NCBI GenBank assembly: GCA_030425385.1
Contig: JAUIAH010000001.1
Coordinates: 310,001-374,000, forward strand
Length of the DNA stretch: 64,000 bases
Origin: Verrucomicrobiia bacterium
GTDB taxonomy: Bacteria > Verrucomicrobiota > Verrucomicrobiia > Verrucomicrobiales > DEV007
Direction: 5' to 3'
The notes beneath the pieces are model-generated. The model was not told the origin of the DNA, did not search any database, and worked only from the letters and a program-made list of their open reading frames with translations. The position numbers and the translations under genes are program-made. Positions 13,023-33,896 of this stretch are shown in pieces. The stretch's first letter is position 1, and every line of letters begins with the position of its first letter.

Positions 13023-15263
13023 ATGCCGAACGCGCCGCGATTCCTCCTTCTCCTCGCTCTGGCGACTGCCAGTCTGCGCGCTCAGGTGCCCACTGCCACG
13101 CTCGACGCCCTCACGCCGCCCGGTGGACCGATCGGAGAAACCGTCGCCGTCAGCGTCCACGGAACTTTCCTCGACGACATCCAGGCGGTCTTCACGTCCC
13201 ACCCCAAGGTGAGCGGCAAGGTTGCGGAGGGAAAGATCCACTTGGCCATTCCCAAGGATCTCGCACCACAGGTGATCGATGTGCGTGTGCAGGGTCGCTA
13301 CGGTGTGTCCAACCCTCGTGCATTCGTGTTAGGGCCTCACCCCGAATCCCTGGAGACCAGCACGCACACCACGCGCGAGCAGGCGCAACCCTGCCCTATC
13401 AATCACACCGTCAGCGGTACCGTTGCGCCGGCGACGATTGATTGGTATCAATGTCAGCTTTCAGGCATGGAGCCGATCCACCTGGATGTGATGGCGGAGC
13501 GCATCGATTCGCGGATGGATCCGACCCTCATCATCTACGATCATCGGGGACGCGAGTTGGCCCGTTACCGCGATGGTCGAGGACGCGACATCACGACCAC
13601 CTTCACGCCGACAGAAGCCGACGCCACGATCACCCTCGCGGTCCATGACTTCCTCTTTGAAGGCGGTGCCTCGTATTTCTATCGCCTCACAGTAAGCGAG
13701 ATGGCGCTACCCATCACCACTCCGATGCGCACGCCCGCCGAACTGCCATGCGCCAATCTGGCTCCCGATCCCGACTCCTATCCCTCCGATGAAGCCGTCC
13801 GCCTCTTGCCCGCGAGTTACCAGGGCAAACTCCCACGCGGGGAGACGGGTTCCATGGATTTCCAGCCGGAAGCATCTGGTCCTGTGGTGGTGGAAATCTT
13901 CTCGGAAAGGCTCGGAGACCCGTCGGATTTCCGCCTGCGAATTGATCGGGTCACCGAGGAAGATACGCTTCAGAAGATCGGTGAGAATGACGACATCGCG
14001 GATCCTATCAGAAATAAACGGCACCGCTTTGGCAGTCGGGATCCGCTGCTTCGGTTTGAGGCCACCAAAGCGAAACGCTATCGCCTCACCTGGCGAAATC
14101 AGTTCCGGACAGGCGGCGCCTTTCGCCTCGAGATCCGCCAGCCGCAGCCTCACATTCACCTCATCGCCGCAACCGATAAGCCTGCGGAGGTAGGGAATCA
14201 GCTCAGCCCATGGAATCCGGTGCTGCGCCGTGGAGACACCGTGAGTTGGGAAATCCTCGCCTTACGACGTGATGGAATGGGTGCCCCCATCACGGTGACC
14301 GTTCCCTCGCTCCCCAAGGGCGTGACCGCGTCTCCTCTCGTGATCGACCGTGGCCACCACCACGGCACCCTCACATTGACCGCGCATGGGGAGGCCGAGG
14401 CCTTCGCCGGTCCGCTCGTCATTCAGGGCACCTCTCAACAGGGAGAGAAGACGTTTCAATGTCAGGCACAAGGGGCGGGCCTCTTGTGGAAAGTGAACGA
14501 TGCCAATCAAGAGCGCTGGGCCAGCCGACTCTCTCCGCAACCGTTCCTCACCGTGCTGGCCGAATCCCCCGCACCCATCGCGCTCACACCCTCACAAACA
14601 CACTACGACACCTGTCTTGGTGCTCAGCTTGCCTTCACCTTTGGCATCGAACGCGCCTACGGTCAGGCGGGCAACTTCAAGACGCGTCTCCACGGCCTGC
14701 CGGGCATGCGACGCCCACCCGAGGCCACCTTTGACCCGAATGCCAAGGAAGTGACGTTGACGCTCAATCTGGTCAATCGCGACAACAACACGTTCGCACC
14801 TGGCACCTATGCTATTCACGCCTGCGGCACCGAGGGGAAGGTTCGTTATCGACCTGATCTGGCGAAGGAAGAGACCAAGGAGTATGAGCACGCATTCATT
14901 TCACCGCCCATCACGTTGGCGATCGCCGATGGCCCACTAACATTCTCCACCATCACACCATTTGAGATTCCTGCGGGGGATTCCCGAGCCGTTCCTATCG
15001 CTGTGAAACGTCAGTTCGGCTTTGCCGACGCCGTTCAGCTTGCCCTCGTGCCTCCCAAGGAGCCGGAGCCGACGTTCACCAAGGCTGAAGCGTCATTGGC
15101 CAAAGACCAGACGGAGGCGACCCTCCAAGTCGCGGCACCGCAAGCCGCAACGCCAGGCACCTACGAAGCCACTCTTGAGGCCAAACTGAACTTCAACGGC
15201 CAGGCCCTCACCATGACACGCCCTGTCACGTTCACCATTCTCGCACCCACCCCATCCTCATGA
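13023..15263 (+). CDS. Secreted PPC-domain protein
   Basis: About 746 residues. I chose ATG 13023 because it begins MPNAPRFLLLLALATASLRA, a clear Sec signal peptide; longer versions would bury it. An N-terminal Ig/TIG-like part (TLDALTPPGGPIGETVAVSV) is followed around residues 115-220 by a bacterial pre-peptidase C-terminal (PPC) type domain, with IDWYQCQLSG and DPTLIIYDHRGREL. Several beta-sandwich regions follow. Such genes sit next to planctomycete cytochrome/WD40 genes in many Planctomycetes and Verrucomicrobia, as here: the stop overlaps the next start (ATGA). No enzymatic motif was found. It is probably a periplasmic or surface partner of the downstream protein. Confidence 0.75.
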   Translation: MPNAPRFLLLLALATASLRAQVPTATLDALTPPGGPIGETVAVSVHGTFLDDIQAVFTSHPKVSGKVAEGKIHLAIPKDLAPQVIDVRVQGRYGVSNPRAFVLGPHPESLETSTHTTREQAQPCPINHTVSGTVAPATIDWYQCQLSGMEPIHLDVMAERIDSRMDPTLIIYDHRGRELARYRDGRGRDITTTFTPTEADATITLAVHDFLFEGGASYFYRLTVSEMALPITTPMRTPAELPCANLAPDPDSYPSDEAVRLLPASYQGKLPRGETGSMDFQPEASGPVVVEIFSERLGDPSDFRLRIDRVTEEDTLQKIGENDDIADPIRNKRHRFGSRDPLLRFEATKAKRYRLTWRNQFRTGGAFRLEIRQPQPHIHLIAATDKPAEVGNQLSPWNPVLRRGDTVSWEILALRRDGMGAPITVTVPSLPKGVTASPLVIDRGHHHGTLTLTAHGEAEAFAGPLVIQGTSQQGEKTFQCQAQGAGLLWKVNDANQERWASRLSPQPFLTVLAESPAPIALTPSQTHYDTCLGAQLAFTFGIERAYGQAGNFKTRLHGLPGMRRPPEATFDPNAKEVTLTLNLVNRDNNTFAPGTYAIHACGTEGKVRYRPDLAKEETKEYEHAFISPPITLAIADGPLTFSTITPFEIPAGDSRAVPIAVKRQFGFADAVQLALVPPKEPEPTFTKAEASLAKDQTEATLQVAAPQAATPGTYEATLEAKLNFNGQALTMTRPVTFTILAPTPSS

Positions 15264-18200
15264 GATCCCAAGCTTCGATCGCGCTCCTCACCCTTTGCTT
15301 GAGCGCCATTCCCTTCGCTGGGCACGCCCAGATTCCGATCACACCCATCGACCGGGAGACACCGATCGATTTCGCCAAAGAAATCTATCCCTTGCTCAAG
15401 AAGAATTGCATCGCCTGTCACAGCCGATCCACCACCAAAGGCCAGCTCAACCTTGAGACGCCCAAGGACATTCTCAAGGGCGGCTCGGAAGGACCGTCGG
15501 TGATTCCTGGAAAGCCCGAGGACAGCTTTCTGCTCCAAGTGGCCGCACATCAGGAAGATCCGATCATGCCCCCCGAGAAGAATAAGGCCAATGCCGTCCC
15601 ATTCACCTCGGAAGAATTGGGATTGCTCCAGCAATGGATTGCGGAAGGTGCAGAAGGCGACGTGCTCGTGGCCACCCCGACTCCAGAAACGTGGGCCCTC
15701 GCCAAACGCCATGATTATCCCGTCTACCACATGGCGCTGGGCCCGCATGATCGCTTCGTCGCTGCCTCAAGAGGACAACGCGTCTTCCTTTATGATATCC
15801 AGCACCTTGAAGAGTTGGGAGAATTGATCGATCCCAAGCTGACGGCAGACGAGACCTTTAAGGCACAGCCCCCGGCTCACCACGACTTTGTTCAGAGTCT
15901 CGCTTTCAGCCCCCAAGGGTGGATCGCCAGTGGCGGTTTTCGCAACGTGAAGCTGTGGCAGCCGAAAGCGCCCACCAGTCAGGTCGTGCGCACGTTTGAC
16001 GAGCCTGTCAGTGTCCTCGCTGTCACCCTGGATCACACGCGGGGAGCCGCGGCCGGGTCCTCAGGGAACGTACATCTTTGGGATCGCGACGGCAGCCATC
16101 AGGCCTATCAATGGCACGAAGGTGCCGTGCACGCCCTCGCGTGGTCTCCCGACGGGAAGTGGCTCGCCACCAGTGGGGCCGATGGCCACGTCCATCTCAT
16201 TTCCCCCGGAAAAGAGCAGCCGACCTACTCTCACAAACCAACCGCGCCAGCAACAGCCTTGCACTTTCTCCATGGACGGCTCGCGGCCGGATTGGCAAAT
16301 GGACACCTCGTGCAATGGGCAGTGGGCGACGGGAAAGAGCTTTCCCAAACCGAAGCACACACCGCCCCGATCACTGCATTGGCGTCTGCCAATCACTCTC
16401 GCGTCTATTCCTCAAGCCAAGACGGGACCGTGAAGGCCTGGGAGTTCGACAACGAATCAGCTGTCCAAACCCTCGAACACGGCGCGCCTATCATTGATCT
16501 AGCCCTGTCGCCCGATGGCACCGAACTCGTTTCCATCGCAGCGGACAGCGCCAAATCTTGGAAGACCGCAGATGGCTCTCTCCTCCACGAATGGCCGATC
16601 GATCCTCCAGGACAACGCGCCTTAGAAGAGCAGAAGCGCGCGCAAGCCACGGCTCAAGCGCTCTTGGCGCACCGCAAGAAGAAGGTCGAGGAAAGGGAGA
16701 AGCTTTGGAACGATGAAGTGGCCAAAGCGAAGAAGGCGGCTCACGACCGACGTGATGCCCTCACCAAACACGATGAAGCTGCCCATGCCGAACACGCCGC
16801 GCGCCTCGCCCATGCCGATCATCTGGCAGCCCTTGCAGACGCTCAAGAAGGCCTTTCAGAAGCGCAAGAACAAGCCGCCGCTTTGAAAGCCGAACACGAA
16901 GCTACCGAGGCCCGGATGAAGGAACAACAAGCCGAGGCCGCTCCCGCCTTGGAATCTCTCAAGAATGCCATAGCGGAGGCCACTTCCAAACAAGCCACCC
17001 TGACAGAACGTCTTCAGCAACTTGAAGAGCGTCGCAAACGGCTCCAATTCATGAAGCGCGAGGCGCAGACGGCACGCGCTTCCCTCCAGCAATTGCAAGC
17101 GCTCGCCAAGGATCCCGATACCCTAACAGAAGCCATCACGGCCACGGAGAACGTTCTTGCAGATACCCAACAGGAACTCTGCAGACAAGAGGACCTGGCG
17201 AATGAGGCCGTCGCGCTGCAGAATCACCTGGACGCGTTGCGGCAACGAGAGACCCAACAACAGGAGGAACTGCACGCACTCTCACAGAACGTCTTTCGAA
17301 AGTCCAAGGCCCTTGGCATGGCCACCGCCATCCAGGAGAAGCTGGCAAAACGCGTTCAGCAATTGACCGAGTCCGGCAAGAAGCTCGACGAGGCGACCAA
17401 GAAAGCCGTCGACGCCCTGGACGGCACGGGCAAGGCCCTCAGGCAGGCGAAAGAGAACGAAGAACTCGCCATTCGCCTCACCCAACGAGCCGCGGAAGCC
17501 CTCCTCCGTGCTCAGACCGCGTTCGGTCTGGCAGAGACCCAATTGGCGAAGGCCACCGAGATTGCCGAAGCAGCTCACCCCAGCCCCCCGCTCTTGGGCG
17601 CCGCATGGTCTGCAGATGGTCAATCACTCGCGTTCATTCGCTCCGATGCTAGCATGCTCGTCGTGAATCCCGAGGCCCCTGACGTGGCCGATGCCCTTCA
17701 AGAAGCGGCCGTCACGGATGTCGTGGCTGCTCCCACTGGTGGCTGGTTTGTAACAACTGACAAAACACTCAAGCGAGTGGAGGCATCACGCGGTTGGGAT
17801 TGGAAACGCACGCTTGGCACTATTGACGATCCCACACGCATCATCGATCGCGTCACCGCCCTCGCTTTCTCTCCCGATGGCCGCTTGCTAGCCACAGGCA
17901 GTGGTTCCCCCTCACGAAGTGGTCAACTCAAGATTTGGCGCGTGGCTGACGGAAGCCTTCTGCATGAGATAGAGGATCCTCATAGTGACACGATTGTTAG
18001 TCTAGAGTTCTCTCCGGACGGCCAACACCTTGCCACAGCATCTACTGACCGTTTCGCCAAAGTATTCGATGTCCAAGAGGGGAGCCTCGTCAGCGCCTTC
18101 GAGGGACACACGGGCCATGTCCTCGACGTGAGCTGGCGTGCCGACGGATTAGTCCTCGCCACCGCTGGGGCTGACAAAGTCATCAAGCTTTGGGACTTCG

Positions 18201-18475
18201 AGGAAGAACGCCAGCTCAAGACGATCGATGGTTACAATCAGGAGATCACCTCTGTCGCCTTCGCAGACACGGCGGAAAAGCTAGTCACCAGCTCAGGAGA
18301 TAAGTCGGTCCGCCTCGGTGGTGATCGCCTTGACGGTAAGGGTTTCGTCTATGCCAGCGCTCTCACCCAAGACGGCGATGTCCTCCTCGCTGCCAGCCAG
18401 GATAGCGCTGTCCGCCTCTGGCAAACACGCGATAAGAAGCTTCTCAAAGAGTTCACGCCTCCCCAAAGCAAGTAA
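15260..18475 (+). CDS. Planctomycete-type cytochrome c / WD40 protein with central coiled coil
   Basis: A 1071-residue exported protein. After the signal peptide (MRSQASIALLTLCLSAIPFA) comes a PSCyt1-type domain with one haem c motif CIACH (Cys50, Cys53, His54) and the typical KGQLNLETP and IMPPEKN segments. WD40 repeats run from about 150 to 445 (ALAWSPDGKWLATSGADGHV). A long Glu/Lys/Ala/Gln-rich coiled coil then fills about 450-775, followed by a second WD40 block to the C-terminus (LEFSPDGQHLATASTDR). The coiled coil thus splits the propeller repeats into two blocks. The protein is translationally coupled to the PPC protein upstream. Probably a periplasmic redox or scaffold protein; no substrate can be named. 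Confidence 0.85.
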   Translation: MRSQASIALLTLCLSAIPFAGHAQIPITPIDRETPIDFAKEIYPLLKKNCIACHSRSTTKGQLNLETPKDILKGGSEGPSVIPGKPEDSFLLQVAAHQEDPIMPPEKNKANAVPFTSEELGLLQQWIAEGAEGDVLVATPTPETWALAKRHDYPVYHMALGPHDRFVAASRGQRVFLYDIQHLEELGELIDPKLTADETFKAQPPAHHDFVQSLAFSPQGWIASGGFRNVKLWQPKAPTSQVVRTFDEPVSVLAVTLDHTRGAAAGSSGNVHLWDRDGSHQAYQWHEGAVHALAWSPDGKWLATSGADGHVHLISPGKEQPTYSHKPTAPATALHFLHGRLAAGLANGHLVQWAVGDGKELSQTEAHTAPITALASANHSRVYSSSQDGTVKAWEFDNESAVQTLEHGAPIIDLALSPDGTELVSIAADSAKSWKTADGSLLHEWPIDPPGQRALEEQKRAQATAQALLAHRKKKVEEREKLWNDEVAKAKKAAHDRRDALTKHDEAAHAEHAARLAHADHLAALADAQEGLSEAQEQAAALKAEHEATEARMKEQQAEAAPALESLKNAIAEATSKQATLTERLQQLEERRKRLQFMKREAQTARASLQQLQALAKDPDTLTEAITATENVLADTQQELCRQEDLANEAVALQNHLDALRQRETQQQEELHALSQNVFRKSKALGMATAIQEKLAKRVQQLTESGKKLDEATKKAVDALDGTGKALRQAKENEELAIRLTQRAAEALLRAQTAFGLAETQLAKATEIAEAAHPSPPLLGAAWSADGQSLAFIRSDASMLVVNPEAPDVADALQEAAVTDVVAAPTGGWFVTTDKTLKRVEASRGWDWKRTLGTIDDPTRIIDRVTALAFSPDGRLLATGSGSPSRSGQLKIWRVADGSLLHEIEDPHSDTIVSLEFSPDGQHLATASTDRFAKVFDVQEGSLVSAFEGHTGHVLDVSWRADGLVLATAGADKVIKLWDFEEERQLKTIDGYNQEITSVAFADTAEKLVTSSGDKSVRLGGDRLDGKGFVYASALTQDGDVLLAASQDSAVRLWQTRDKKLLKEFTPPQSK

Positions 18476-28021: not shown

Positions 28022-29686
28022 ATGCCCACCTCCTTTCTACCGGAACCCTACGCGCATCCCTACGATATCGATCCCAAGTACGCTCGCAGCGCGGTCTATC
28101 TCAGCAGTGAATTTGCCATTGATCAGAGTTTCAAGATCTACTCCGGGGGGCTCGGTTTCCTCGCCGGATCTCACATGCTGTCAGCCGCCGCGCTGAAGCA
28201 GAATCTCTGTGGGATCGGCGTGTGGTGGACTTGCGGATACTACAACCAGACCCGCGGTGAAGGCCGCGAGATGGCGGTGCAATTCCGTCGCAAAGACTGT
28301 GCCTTTCTCCAGGATACCGGGATCCGCTTTCAGCTCCCAGTGTATGGCAATCAAGTCTGCGTGGGCGCGCTCTTTCTTCCAGCGGAGACCTTCGGGACCG
28401 TCCCCATGTTCTTCCTGACCACGGACATCGATGAGAACAACGAGATGGATCGCGAGATCACCCGGCGTCTCTACGACAACGATCACCACCGTCGCATCGC
28501 CCAGAACATCGTCCTTGGTGCCGGGGGTGCTCGCCTTCTCGAGATCCTCAAGGTGGATCCCGAGATCTGGCATCTGAACGAAGCCCATGGCCTCTCCGCT
28601 GCCTTCCGGGTGCTGGAGAAACACGGCGGCCATGTTGATGAAGTACGTAAGCGTTTCGTCTTCACCACGCATACCCCTGAAGAAGCTGGGAATGCCAAGA
28701 ATAGCTTTCATGAACTCATGCACGCCTCCTTCTTTGGCGGTCTGAATGAGAAGCAGGTGCGCGACGCCACCGCCATTGGCGACGAGGTATTCAATCACTC
28801 GCTCGCCGCGATGCGGCTCAGTCACAAGGCCAATGGCGTCTCCAAACTTCATGGCGAGGTCGCACGGGAAATGTGGGGACACCATGATGGCATCTGCCCC
28901 ATCAGCCATGTGACCAACGCTCAGAATGCCACGTATTGGAAAGATCGTGGCTTGGAGAAGGCTCGTCTCAACCATGATGCGGAGTTCCTTAAGGAACGCA
29001 AAGCTGAGCTGAAAGAACGACTTTTCCGAACCGTCGCCGATCAGAGCGGCAAGCTGATGGACCCTGACATTCTCACACTCGTCTGGGCGCGCCGTTTCGC
29101 CGGATACAAACGGGCAGAACTCATCACGCGAGACCTTGACCGCTTTCGCGCGCTGTTAGAGAACAATGACCACCCCATCCAGATCCTCTGGGCCGGCAAA
29201 CCCTATCCGTTCGACTACGGAGCGATTGAGAATTTCAACCATCTCGTCCGCCTCACTCAGGACGCCCCCAATGCGACCGTGCTCGTTGGTCATGAGTTGG
29301 AGCTATCTCGACAATTGAAGTGCGGTTCGGACATCTGGCTCAACAATCCCATCGTCACCCGAGAAGCCTCCGGCACCTCTGGCATGTCGGCCGCGATGAA
29401 TGCCTGCGTCAATCTCTCGACCGATGATGGCTGGGTGTGTGAATTTGCCAAAGATGGGCACAACAGCTTCATCGTACCCAAAGCGGACCCCTCGCTCGAT
29501 CACCACGCACGAGACGAGTATGACCGCACCCAACTTCTCAGCATCCTTGAGGATAAGATCCTACCACTTTACTACGATCAGCCTGACGACTGGTGGCAGC
29601 TTGCTCTCAATTCCATGAATGACGTTGTGCCCTTCTTCGATTCGGACCGGATGGCGGACGAATACTACACCAAGGTCTACTCGTAA
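28022..29686 (+). CDS. Alpha-glucan phosphorylase homologue (GT35, short form) lacking the PLP lysine
   Basis: A 554-residue protein of the glycogen/alpha-glucan phosphorylase family, which releases glucose-1-phosphate from glycogen using pyridoxal phosphate. Recognisable blocks: VYLSSEFAIDQSFKIYSGGL, WHLNEAHGLSAAF, FTTHTPEEAGN, WARRFAGYKRAE and REASGTSGMSAAMNA. In phosphorylases the last block reads G-T-S-G-M-K or G-T-G-N-M-K, the Lys forming the PLP Schiff base. Here it is Ser456 (codon TCG, 29387-29389). The short form lacks the N-terminal extension of related proteins. Loss of the Lys should abolish normal phosphorylase chemistry. It may be an inactive relative, a regulator or a different glucosyltransferase. 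Monocistronic. Confidence 0.85.
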   Translation: MPTSFLPEPYAHPYDIDPKYARSAVYLSSEFAIDQSFKIYSGGLGFLAGSHMLSAAALKQNLCGIGVWWTCGYYNQTRGEGREMAVQFRRKDCAFLQDTGIRFQLPVYGNQVCVGALFLPAETFGTVPMFFLTTDIDENNEMDREITRRLYDNDHHRRIAQNIVLGAGGARLLEILKVDPEIWHLNEAHGLSAAFRVLEKHGGHVDEVRKRFVFTTHTPEEAGNAKNSFHELMHASFFGGLNEKQVRDATAIGDEVFNHSLAAMRLSHKANGVSKLHGEVAREMWGHHDGICPISHVTNAQNATYWKDRGLEKARLNHDAEFLKERKAELKERLFRTVADQSGKLMDPDILTLVWARRFAGYKRAELITRDLDRFRALLENNDHPIQILWAGKPYPFDYGAIENFNHLVRLTQDAPNATVLVGHELELSRQLKCGSDIWLNNPIVTREASGTSGMSAAMNACVNLSTDDGWVCEFAKDGHNSFIVPKADPSLDHHARDEYDRTQLLSILEDKILPLYYDQPDDWWQLALNSMNDVVPFFDSDRMADEYYTKVYS

Positions 29687-30398: not shown

Positions 30399-33300
30399 TC
30401 ACTGGGCGTAGGGCTGACCCGCCTGGTATTTCTTGAGGGCCATTTGCAGGCTTTGCCGTAGAGCTTGGTTTCCTTGTTGTCGTGCGAGGGCGATCCCGCG
30501 TTGTGTGGCGGCGACGGCTTTCTCAAAAGCGCCAGCCTCAGCGTAGGCTGCAGCAAGGGTGTCGAGGACTCCGGGATCGTTCTGTGCGGTGAGATGCGTG
30601 GCTCTCTCCGCCCACCGGACGGCTTCCGTTCCGTTCCGTATGGTTTTGTCAGGGTGCGTGGCCAGTTGCCATGCCAGGTTGTTGAGCACGAGGACATTCT
30701 TATCATCCTCCGCCAGGGCGGCTCGATAGTGGGCCATGCCTTCTTTCGGGCGCTTCTTCGCAATAAACCCATCACCGATCCAGGTGAGTAACTTGCCGTA
30801 CTCGCTGCTCCGGGCTTGGAACGTGGCCTTGCCTCGTTGCGCGAGTTCAGCAGCGTCTTCCACCTGCCCGTGATCCATGAGGTCGAGGCCCAAGAGGATG
30901 GGATCGAGCGGTTGAGGCCTCACATACCATTGCCCTGGAAATGGCAATGAGGCATCGTGCCAAGCTTCCCACGCGCCGGCCGCCTGCCTGGCATCGGTGA
31001 GGATCCGCTCTATCGGGACAGCGCCTTTATAGAAGGCGAGGACGGCGCCCTGCTGGTCTAACAAGACACTTGTCGGCACAGGAAGTGCCCACTGCGGTCC
31101 GAAGAGACGTGCGTAGAGGACTTCCAAGCGGCGAACCGTTTCCGCCGTGGCGCGGCCACCCGTGAACGGGAGCTTGAGACGCCTGAAATAGGCTGCTGGA
31201 TCAGCATCCGATGCCGCGGTGGCATCCCCAACTTGCAAGCCATCCACGGACAGGGCAACCACATCGATATTCGCCTTCTCCAGCGCCTTAGCGTTCTGTG
31301 AGAATGCTTTCAGTTCCGCCACACAAGGCACACACCAAGTGGCCCAAAGGTTGACCAAGGTGTGTTTGTCAGAGGCACCACCGGCGTAGGCTGGGCGCCC
31401 GTCCCAGGTCGTGTAGGGCAATCGAGGGAGCGGCCATCGCGACGGCGTGACGGCATGCGCGGTTCCAGAAACCGTCTCAGCAGAAGGCGCCTCCGAGGCA
31501 GCCAACGCAATCGTCTTTGGGCCCGTGACCGGTTGAGCCCTTCCCGTGCCCTGCACGAGTCGATAGCGTCCGCTGAGCGGTGCCTCAGTGAAGCGCTCGC
31601 GCGCGCCTCCCGGCCAGTGCACCTCGATCCGCGCGATGCCAGCCGTGCTGCCCAACCCGAAGTGAAGCCACTTGCTCGATTGACTGAGAAACCCATCGCC
31701 AGCTTTGAGTGTCTTGGTTAGGCTTCGCCCCTCCGCTAGAGTGACCACCACCCGCGCGCCGATCCCATCGCGATTGCTTTGCTTCCCTTGTAAGCGGAAC
31801 GCCACCCAGGTGGACGCCGCCTGCTCTTGGAGTTGATTCCGCACCAATCGCAGCATCGGTGCCGTGCGATTGGTGATCCAGAAGTCGAGATCGCCATCAC
31901 GGTCCCAATCCACGGCAGCAGTCGCCCTGGCATCATCATCGAAATCGAGCCCCAGAGCGGCACTGGCCGTGACGAACCGACGCGTTTCCGATCCTGGCAG
32001 AGGCACATTGAGAAAGGCACAGTTGCGTTCGTGACCACTGAGGGAAACACCCTGGTCCATGAGCGTGTCCAACTGCATCAAGGCTTTGCGATAAGGCGCT
32101 TCGCGGCTCTTGACCTGGGCCAGATCCCCCGCGTCGAGTGGCGAAGACGGCAGAACCTGCCGCCAATAGAAACTTCACAAATCGTCCGGCACTCTTCCCG
32201 TGACGAAGCCATTGGCGACAAGGAGATCTTCCCAGCCATCGTTGTTCATGTCCGCAAAGATCGATCCCCAACTCCAGCGGCCCATCGTCGCTCCAGTGGC
32301 CATGCTGACATCCTCGAACACCCCTTGCCGTCCGGTGTTCCGAAAGAGACTGTTGCCCCGCGCCATGCGTTGCGAACGCTCTAACAAATCCTTTGACGTT
32401 CCTGGCAGGAAGTTTGGCTGCGTCGTCACGCGACTGCCAGCAGCGGAGAACATGTTGCCCGCGTAGAGATCTGGTCGGCCATCGCCATCATAATCGGCTG
32501 AGGCAGCCGACATGCCGAAACTCCCGTCATCGATCCCAGCCGCTTTGGCATGATCCCGGAAATGCCCACTTTCATTGAGATAAAGATTCTTGAGTCCAAA
32601 GTCATTGGCCACAAATAGATCCTGGTCGCCATCGAGATCCACGTCTTCCCAGGTCGCAGCGAAGGAGAACCGTGTGTTGTTCGCTTCCGCCAACCCACTT
32701 TCGGCCGTGGCATCCGTGAAGTTGAGCCATCGATCTGCCGTCGTCGCCGCGCCATCATTGCGAATGAGGAAGTTGCCTCCTCCGTTGTTCGCATCAAAGT
32801 AAGGGACCGGCACCGCGAGATCCGCGCCTTCGTCCTTGTTTGCAAAGTAACGGCATACGTAAAGATCGAGATCGCCGTCATTGTCGTAATCAGCCGCGCT
32901 CACACTGAACGCATTGCGAACAGGTCGATAGCGTAGCTTGGCCTCGAACCTGCCGGAGCCATTATTGCGAAAGGCCAGCAACCCGGTGTCTGCAGCCAAG
33001 ACCAAATCCTGATCGCCGTCATTGTCGAGATCCACGAGCAAGGCGGACCGCGTCAGGTCGAGCAAGTCTACTCCCATCTCCGCAGCCACATCGATGGCGG
33101 TGCCGTCAGGCTGCTGTACGAACAGGCGGTTCGGCAAGCCGCCGTTCTGACAGACATACACATCATCACGTCCATCGCCATTCACATCGCCTACCGCCAC
33201 GCCTTGATGGCCAAACTTGAAGAACCGATTGAAGAGTTCGATGCGTTGCCGCCAATAGGTATTCCCATGACGCAGGTGTTTCTGATAGGCCTCGGTCCCT

Positions 33301-33896
33301 CCGAGAACGGCGGCGGTGGCATCGACAAAGGACGGCTGATTCCCCTCCGTCTTGACCAGAATTTCTTCATAATGGGCCAGCTCCAGGTCGCGAATGCGTG
33401 GCACGTCTGCGTCCGTGGCAGGCGTTTCCCAGGTCACCTGCCATCGCATGTTGATCTCCAGGAGACCTTCTGCCGTCTTTCCCGCCAGGGTCACCAAGGC
33501 ATCCGTCACGGGAGCGGACCCTGACAGGTCCACACTGACAAGTTTAAACTTCGTGCGACTGAGCGTCTCCGTGAAGGGCTCTAACAAAGCCGCCCAGGGC
33601 GAGGAGTTCGGCGCGGGCCGAGCGGCAGGTTTCCCAAAGGCGACTCGAACGCGTGCGTCATCGACAACCACCTCTCTTTCTGGGCGTAAGTTTGGAAGGG
33701 AGGGCGTTCGGCTCAGCACTCCGGAGGCTGGCGCTTTCCGCTCATGGAGCGCTTTGCCCAGGGCTTTGAGCTGGGTCAGGGCAACTTCCGAGAAGGCCTC
33801 ACTTCGCCACGCCTGAGGAATGCCCGGGGCCTCTTGGGCGGCGAGCGCGCAGGGGAAGAGCATAATGACCAGGCAAAGCCGCGGGAGGAATGACAT
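30399..33896 (-). CDS. Candidate selenoprotein: secreted FG-GAP/UnbV - thioredoxin-like - TPR fusion with in-frame UGA
   Basis: One 1166-codon frame from ATG 33896 to TGA 30401-30399, interrupted only by a TGA at 32177-32175 (codon 574). Both sides are in the same frame, and the codons after the TGA stay open (S-F-Y-W-R-Q-V-L-P) into the next conserved block. Layout: signal peptide MSFLPRLCLVIMLFPCALAA; FG-GAP/VCBS propeller with Asp-rich calcium loops (about 228-573, e.g. VGDVNGDGRDDVYV); UGA; ASPIC/UnbV domain (about 670-785); TlpA/thioredoxin-like domain with WCVPC (Cys855, Cys858); TPR repeats (about 1035-1160). A SECIS-like hairpin follows the UGA. I interpret UGA as selenocysteine. The alternatives are a nonsense mutation or two separate proteins restarting near 32081. 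An exported redox role is inferred. Confidence 0.72.
32146..32164 (-). promoter_or_regulatory. Bacterial SECIS-like hairpin downstream of the in-frame UGA
   Basis: Read on the minus strand, CGGCAG pairs perfectly with CTGCCG around a GTT loop, extended by a G-U and a G-C pair to 8 bp. The loop begins with G then U, as bacterial SECIS loops do, and 18 nt separate the UGA from the loop G. In E. coli fdhF the corresponding loop also follows GCA and begins GGU at nearly the same distance. This is what SelB would need to recode UGA. Confidence 0.65.

Follow-up and report, generated by a model that had tools for sequence, protein, structure and literature searches.

Phosphorylases are the textbook case of enzymes that use pyridoxal phosphate (PLP) for its phosphate alone: catalysis relies on the PLP phosphate, and the Schiff base is not required. 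In this class (EC 2.4.1.1), the PLP lysine is located eight residues after the active-site glutamate. In E. coli GlgP, we take K549 together with the GTS turn to hold the PLP phosphate; R550, K555 and the GGLG loop would contact the substrate phosphate. There is an old precedent in which phosphorylase-bound pyridoxal-diphospho-glucose serves as the source of the transferred glucose, and in many nucleotide-sugar enzymes of the GT-B fold, the residue at the E+8 spacing of the EX7E motif binds ribose. PLP has been discussed as a surrogate nucleoside monophosphate in the GT35 family and proposed as a stand-in for the nucleotide of an older nucleotide-sugar enzyme (PMC11046441). Among the described relatives, the Segatella copri phosphorylase (9l6i, 852 aa) and the canonical GT35 enzymes E. 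coli GlgP and MalP (about 800 aa) all contain the PLP lysine.

The window, that is, the whole stretch of 64,000 nucleotides of a Verrucomicrobiia genome that was analyzed, encodes a short GT35-like protein (Table 1) with active-site residues that align with those of GlgP and MalP. This protein shares with 9l6i the fold, the GGLG loop, H217, R358, K363 and the EASGTSG motif, but is shorter, is altered in the loops 298-305, 394-395 and 423-433, has gained Lys433, and belongs to a set of proteins with Ser or Thr in place of the PLP lysine. It scores 54.2 bits against PF00343 (cut-off 27) and 390 bits against TIGR02094 (cut-off 191.7); no match to DUF3417 was found, and the extra length of the long forms is absent. 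In ungapped alignments, Ser456 falls on the PLP lysine of both 9l6i (EASGTSGEKAEMN) and E. coli GlgP (EASGTSNMK), as the earlier note on this DNA had proposed; the residue eight positions after the active-site glutamate is thus Ser. A misread frame, a misalignment or a sequencing error can be ruled out, because all 109 related loci (L032-L140) carry either Thr (60) or Ser (49) at this place. The gene is the only PF00343 match in the host genome (8.0 Mb in 74 contigs, 95.5% complete).

Table 1. Features of the GT35-like gene and protein, with positions in the window
Feature	Position	Strand	Remarks
CDS, 554-aa GT35-like protein, short form	28022..29686	+	ATG start, ORF intact
G42 G43 L44 G45, glycine-rich loop	28145..28156	+	GlgP G123-G126
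H217	28670..28672	+	GlgP H358; invariant
T298 N A Q N302, remodelled loop	28913..28927	+	TNGVH in Lys-type; Q301 in 103/103 clade rows, V/I in Lys-type
W355	29084..29086	+	W in 100/103 clade rows; F in 28/28 Lys-type; W in 9/13 GlgA sequences
R357 R358 F A G Y K363 R364, phosphate-binding residues	29090..29113	+	GlgP K549, R550, K555
P394 in GKPYP	29201..29203	+	103/103 clade rows; A in 28/28 Lys-type
K433, clade-specific lysine	29318..29320	+	103/103 clade rows; 0/28 Lys-type
REASGTSGMSAAMNA, PLP-lysine loop and helix start of phosphorylases	29360..29404	+	R447-E-A-S-G-T-S-G-M-S456-A-A-M-N-A
E448	29363..29365	+	GlgP E653; Glu of the GlgA EPCG motif; invariant
Ser456, codon TCG, at the PLP-lysine place	29387..29389	+	E448+8

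Proteins of the same form were detected in 8 of the 57 related genomes, including that of the window; the commonest genus among these is apparently Akkermansia-like, with 58-59% identity, and Thr occurs once. A scan of named genomes with the single protein as the query yielded no match. An alignment-based scan yielded 572 loci, the best 80 of which were taken; these belong to Akkermansiaceae, other Verrucomicrobiota, and Bacteroidota (Dyadobacter, Larkinella, Spirosoma, Runella, Flavobacterium and Persicobacter). At E<=1e-60, matches are present in 42 of the 288 Verrucomicrobiota genomes: the top 30 matches (at least 902 bits) are of the Ser/Thr type, and the other 12 score 285-433 bits, with all ten of those that were read being Lys-type. 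At E<=1e-25, matches occur in 262 of the 395 Bacteroidota genomes, 42 of which have matches of clade strength (at least 765 bits); the 12 such loci listed and four second copies that were read all contain Ser or Thr, and ten weaker matches from nine genomes all contain Lys.

The alignment of the clade comprised 103 sequences (the window, L032-L111, L008, L009, L124, L134, L137, L139, L140, L240-L250 and L260-L263, excluding L239 and other near-copies). The lysine column is occupied by Lys in all 28 Lys-type sequences and in E. coli GlgP, and by Thr (71) or Ser (32) in all 103 clade members, although such counts are not independent because all members of the clade descend from one ancestor. In a tree of 24 Ser/Thr, 28 Lys-type and four canonical sequences, the Ser/Thr proteins lie on one side of a branch of length 1.0, with a support of 100/100 and recovery in all of 200 bootstrap trees, and are nested among Lys-bearing short phosphorylases. 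The sister group (support 99/98) consists of two proteins of 564 and 574 aa, L141 and L251, which share the short length but retain the PLP lysine along with the Lys-type residues in the GKAHP, TNGVH and NEGH motifs; a tree without L251 agrees. Given this support and the nesting among Lys-type proteins, the PLP lysine was, most simply, lost once, in a single ancestor. The earlier note had asked whether Ser456 defines a clade: there is one clade, but the residue that defines it is Ser or Thr, not Ser. All Verrucomicrobiota sequences in the tree except L009 fall within those of Bacteroidota, which suggests transfer of the gene between the two phyla. Judging from these comparisons, we are dealing with a widespread, well-preserved branch of GT35 that lacks the PLP lysine throughout; membership in the superfamily is indicated by the matches of all 51 clade proteins scored to PF00343 and TIGR02094 at the E-values set. 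No earlier report of such a clade was found in the open-access papers searched.

The second clade copies found in some genomes (L260, L261, L262, L263 and L280) constitute a subfamily marked by certain changes of its own. In three of these (L260, L261 and L263), R357 is replaced by K and THT by NHT; the Runella second copy (L262, L280) is located beside a small gene that in L280 is annotated as a member of the pyridoxamine 5'-phosphate oxidase family. Separately, two human-gut records labeled 'Bacteriophage sp.' (MT835921.1 and MT836851.1), which carry no annotation, contain a GT35 relative with about 29-30% identity, possibly bacterial DNA.

The clade proteins appear to be actively maintained. 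Of the six unsaturated pairs within the clade, five have a dN/dS of 0.02-0.13 and one (L033/L034) has 0.44; three further pairs were saturated. These values rule out a decaying gene, and such strong purifying selection implies that the protein is kept for some job. The expectation that the protein is selected rather than decaying, and that its fold and the ARRFAGYKR segment are well kept, is therefore upheld, the latter by the alignment, an AlphaFold2 model and structure comparison. Positions G42-G45, H217, R358, K363, E448, T452 and S453 are retained across the 103 Ser/Thr and 28 Lys-type sequences; R358 and K363 are found in all 103 clade members, and position 357 is occupied by R in 100 members and by K in the other three. 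In phosphorylase structures, these are presumably the residues that contact the glucose and both phosphates. The residues of both the PLP-phosphate and the substrate-phosphate sites are thus present in the clade, and a two-phosphate active site appears to have been preserved. The loss of a cofactor-holding residue is a usual sign of a pseudoenzyme, and together with the lack of conserved gene neighbors could point to a catalytically inactive, glycogen-binding or regulatory protein. Pseudoenzymes, however, usually lose several catalytic residues, whereas here, among the residues compared, only the lysine is gone, and 103 sequences preserve the catalytic Glu and His as well as the Arg and Lys residues of both phosphate sites, which makes inactivity improbable.

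Other positions changed together with the lysine. Eight columns (S50, A/S188, Q301, V/I354, P394, F405, E425 and P486) are strictly disjoint between the Ser/Thr and Lys-type sequences, and the nearly strict ones include N302, Y305, W355, Y395 and G423. S429 is absolute in the clade, with A or G in the Lys-type proteins. Placed from a phosphorylase structure, as we take them to be, around PLP, the changed columns would line the PLP site. At position 456 itself, only Ser and Thr are found, and Ser is encoded by both TCN and AGY codons, which suggests that a hydroxyl group has been selected.

From the restriction of position 456 to hydroxyl residues and the strict change of the eight columns, we lean, with a probability of roughly 0.4, to the reading that the clade proteins are PLP-free glucosyltransferases of glycogen metabolism that would use a nucleotide-sugar donor, with the nucleotide bound at the former PLP site. 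The ancestor would have been a short GT35 phosphorylase in which PLP came to be no longer held. In phosphorylase, the PLP phosphate and the substrate phosphate would adjoin each other, and because both sites are kept, the diphosphate of an NDP-sugar could occupy them, with the nucleoside placed in the remodelled site of the PLP ring. The donor, the acceptor, the direction of the reaction and the absence of PLP are inferred.

Alternatively, the clade proteins might still be PLP-dependent alpha-glucan phosphorylases, with PLP bound non-covalently or through Lys433 and with no bond to position 456, an explanation that we regard as almost as probable. The earlier note had named a nearby Lys at the same position as evidence against its reading; by sequence, there is none at 456, but the invariant Lys433, gained exactly where Lys456 was lost (V, T, Y or I in Lys-type proteins), is located on the helix 425-435 of the AlphaFold2 model and could in principle take over the role of the lysine, although it lies two turns down the helix from 425. 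The residues W306, Y424, R357 and T452, which we assume to touch PLP, are also kept in the clade (Y424 in 94 of the 103 sequences); the window protein, however, has His424 in place of the Tyr thought to pack on PLP. The strict change of eight other columns along with the lysine is hard to square with the same cofactor.

The fold cannot separate the nucleotide-sugar reading from a phosphorylase, because the model (51 clade sequences; pLDDT 88.5, falling to 55 in the ten-residue block 441-450) fits MalP and E. coli GlgA equally well: the VIA-align Z is 31.1 for MalP and 31.0 for closed E. coli GlgA with ADP and glucose (2qzs). For 9l6i, it is 33.4 (2.4 A over 534 residues). GlgA (GT5) shares the GT-B fold with the clade, and the equivalents of R300, K305 and E377 are aligned in 13 of 13 GlgA sequences, but the clade proteins lack the KTGGL and EPCG motifs and fall far below the TIGR02095 cut-off (best score 53.1 bits among ten proteins scored, against 328.45); TIGR02095 is not among the model matches of the window protein itself. 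Of 51 Ser/Thr proteins, 30 match TIGR02095 at E<=1e-5 and 17 match the GT5 domain PF08323 at E<=0.01; among 28 Lys-type proteins, the corresponding counts are 1 and 0. The single Lys-type match to TIGR02095 (1e-10) is L251 of the sister pair, so the GlgA likeness may be older than the loss of the lysine; it lends weak support to a synthase-like function. In the discriminating columns, the GlgA majority sides with Ser/Thr three times and with the Lys-type three times, and an hhalign comparison between the clade and E. coli GlgA alone gave no significant match. A fusion to GT5 was sought among the clade genes and none was seen; the largest open frame containing a clade gene, of 1239 codons (L037), is taken to owe its extra length to an upstream stretch without a stop.

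Gene context provides no clue to the function, because no neighborhood is conserved: in the flanks of the 80 named loci, read up to 10 kb on either side, the biggest neighbor family, presumably an FAD-linked oxidase by sequence, occurs at 11 loci. In the neighborhoods read, including those on two plasmids, no glycogen gene was recognized next to the clade gene, and the genes around the plasmid copies have no evident link to glycogen. These surroundings might be taken to indicate activity on a donor or acceptor unrelated to glycogen, as in a phosphorylase acting on a different glucoside or a glucosyltransferase for small molecules, but a branching-enzyme homolog was found in every clade genome searched, a count made on clade genomes only, and we consider such a function very improbable. 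Specifically, over the clade-carrying genomes and one genome with a Lys-type protein only (G226), the branching-enzyme model TIGR01515 was matched in 54 of 54 clade genomes (43 over the cut-off) and in all 15 genomes of a second set, none over the cut-off, 14 of which carry the clade. A role in glycogen metabolism is accordingly likely.

In the window, the gene is convergent with an adjoining gene for a D-lyxose isomerase family protein (PF07385; 29720-30775, minus strand). Farther along the minus strand (30399-33896), a protein with FG-GAP, ASPIC/UnbV, thioredoxin and TPR regions is split into ORFs of 573 and 560 aa by a single in-frame TGA (32175-32177), with the frame open on either side (VPDDL*SFYWRQ); this may represent a pseudogene, a sequencing error or recoding. 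The window also encodes a 1071-aa protein (15260-18475, plus strand) with many WD40 repeats and a planctomycete-type cytochrome c domain.

The distribution of GT35 genes speaks against the nucleotide-sugar reading: clade genomes seldom hold another phosphorylase, which better suits a substitute for phosphorylase. In 13 of 15 named clade genomes and 8 of 8 probable Akkermansia genomes, the clade gene is the sole GT35 gene, despite the presence of a branching-enzyme homolog; of the two other named genomes, one adds a canonical phosphorylase and the second carries the clade gene twice. Among Bacteroidota, another kind of phosphorylase was found in 0 of 42 clade genomes versus 220 of 353 others (Fisher 6e-17, uncorrected for ancestry, with at most three candidate stretches scored per genome), an exclusivity that may merely mirror lineage. 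It is this pattern of replacement, along with Lys433, that speaks for a retained PLP-dependent phosphorylase.

As regards synthesis, no GlgC match over the cut-off was found in 15 genomes, so ADP-glucose made by the usual route is not expected in these. All 15 Verrucomicrobiota genomes searched encode a GT5-domain protein, and a second synthase would thus not be needed there. In 9 of 12 named Bacteroidota clade genomes, the best GlgA match covers the N-terminal half only; stand-alone GlgA (GT5) N-terminal halves of 274-350 aa were observed, for example, at loci L233-L237. This half is already in print as a conserved fragment, and members of Bacteroidetes have GT3 synthases (PMC11046441); Bacteroidetes are also described as lacking GlgC (PMC10395257).

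By sequence, the clade belongs to GT35 but should not be filed as PLP-dependent phosphorylase. Under the NCBI model TIGR02094, such proteins receive the name "alpha-glucan family phosphorylase", and two plasmid relatives are annotated as glgP, yet have Thr at the lysine place. Clade members, those of Akkermansia included, pass the TIGR02094 cut-off, so the phosphorylase label in databases may mislead, and models of glycogen metabolism built on it may assign the wrong reaction. More tentatively, and at rather less than even odds, the clade could represent a natural reversal within GT35: a former phosphorylase without PLP that would now be a nucleotide-sugar-dependent glucan synthase, with a nucleotide restored where PLP may have replaced one. 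Sharing this scaffold yet naturally lacking the PLP lysine, the clade allows a direct test of the idea that PLP stands in for a nucleotide, and if true, the reversal would explain glycogen synthesis without the usual GlgC/GlgA pair in several Bacteroidota and Akkermansiaceae.
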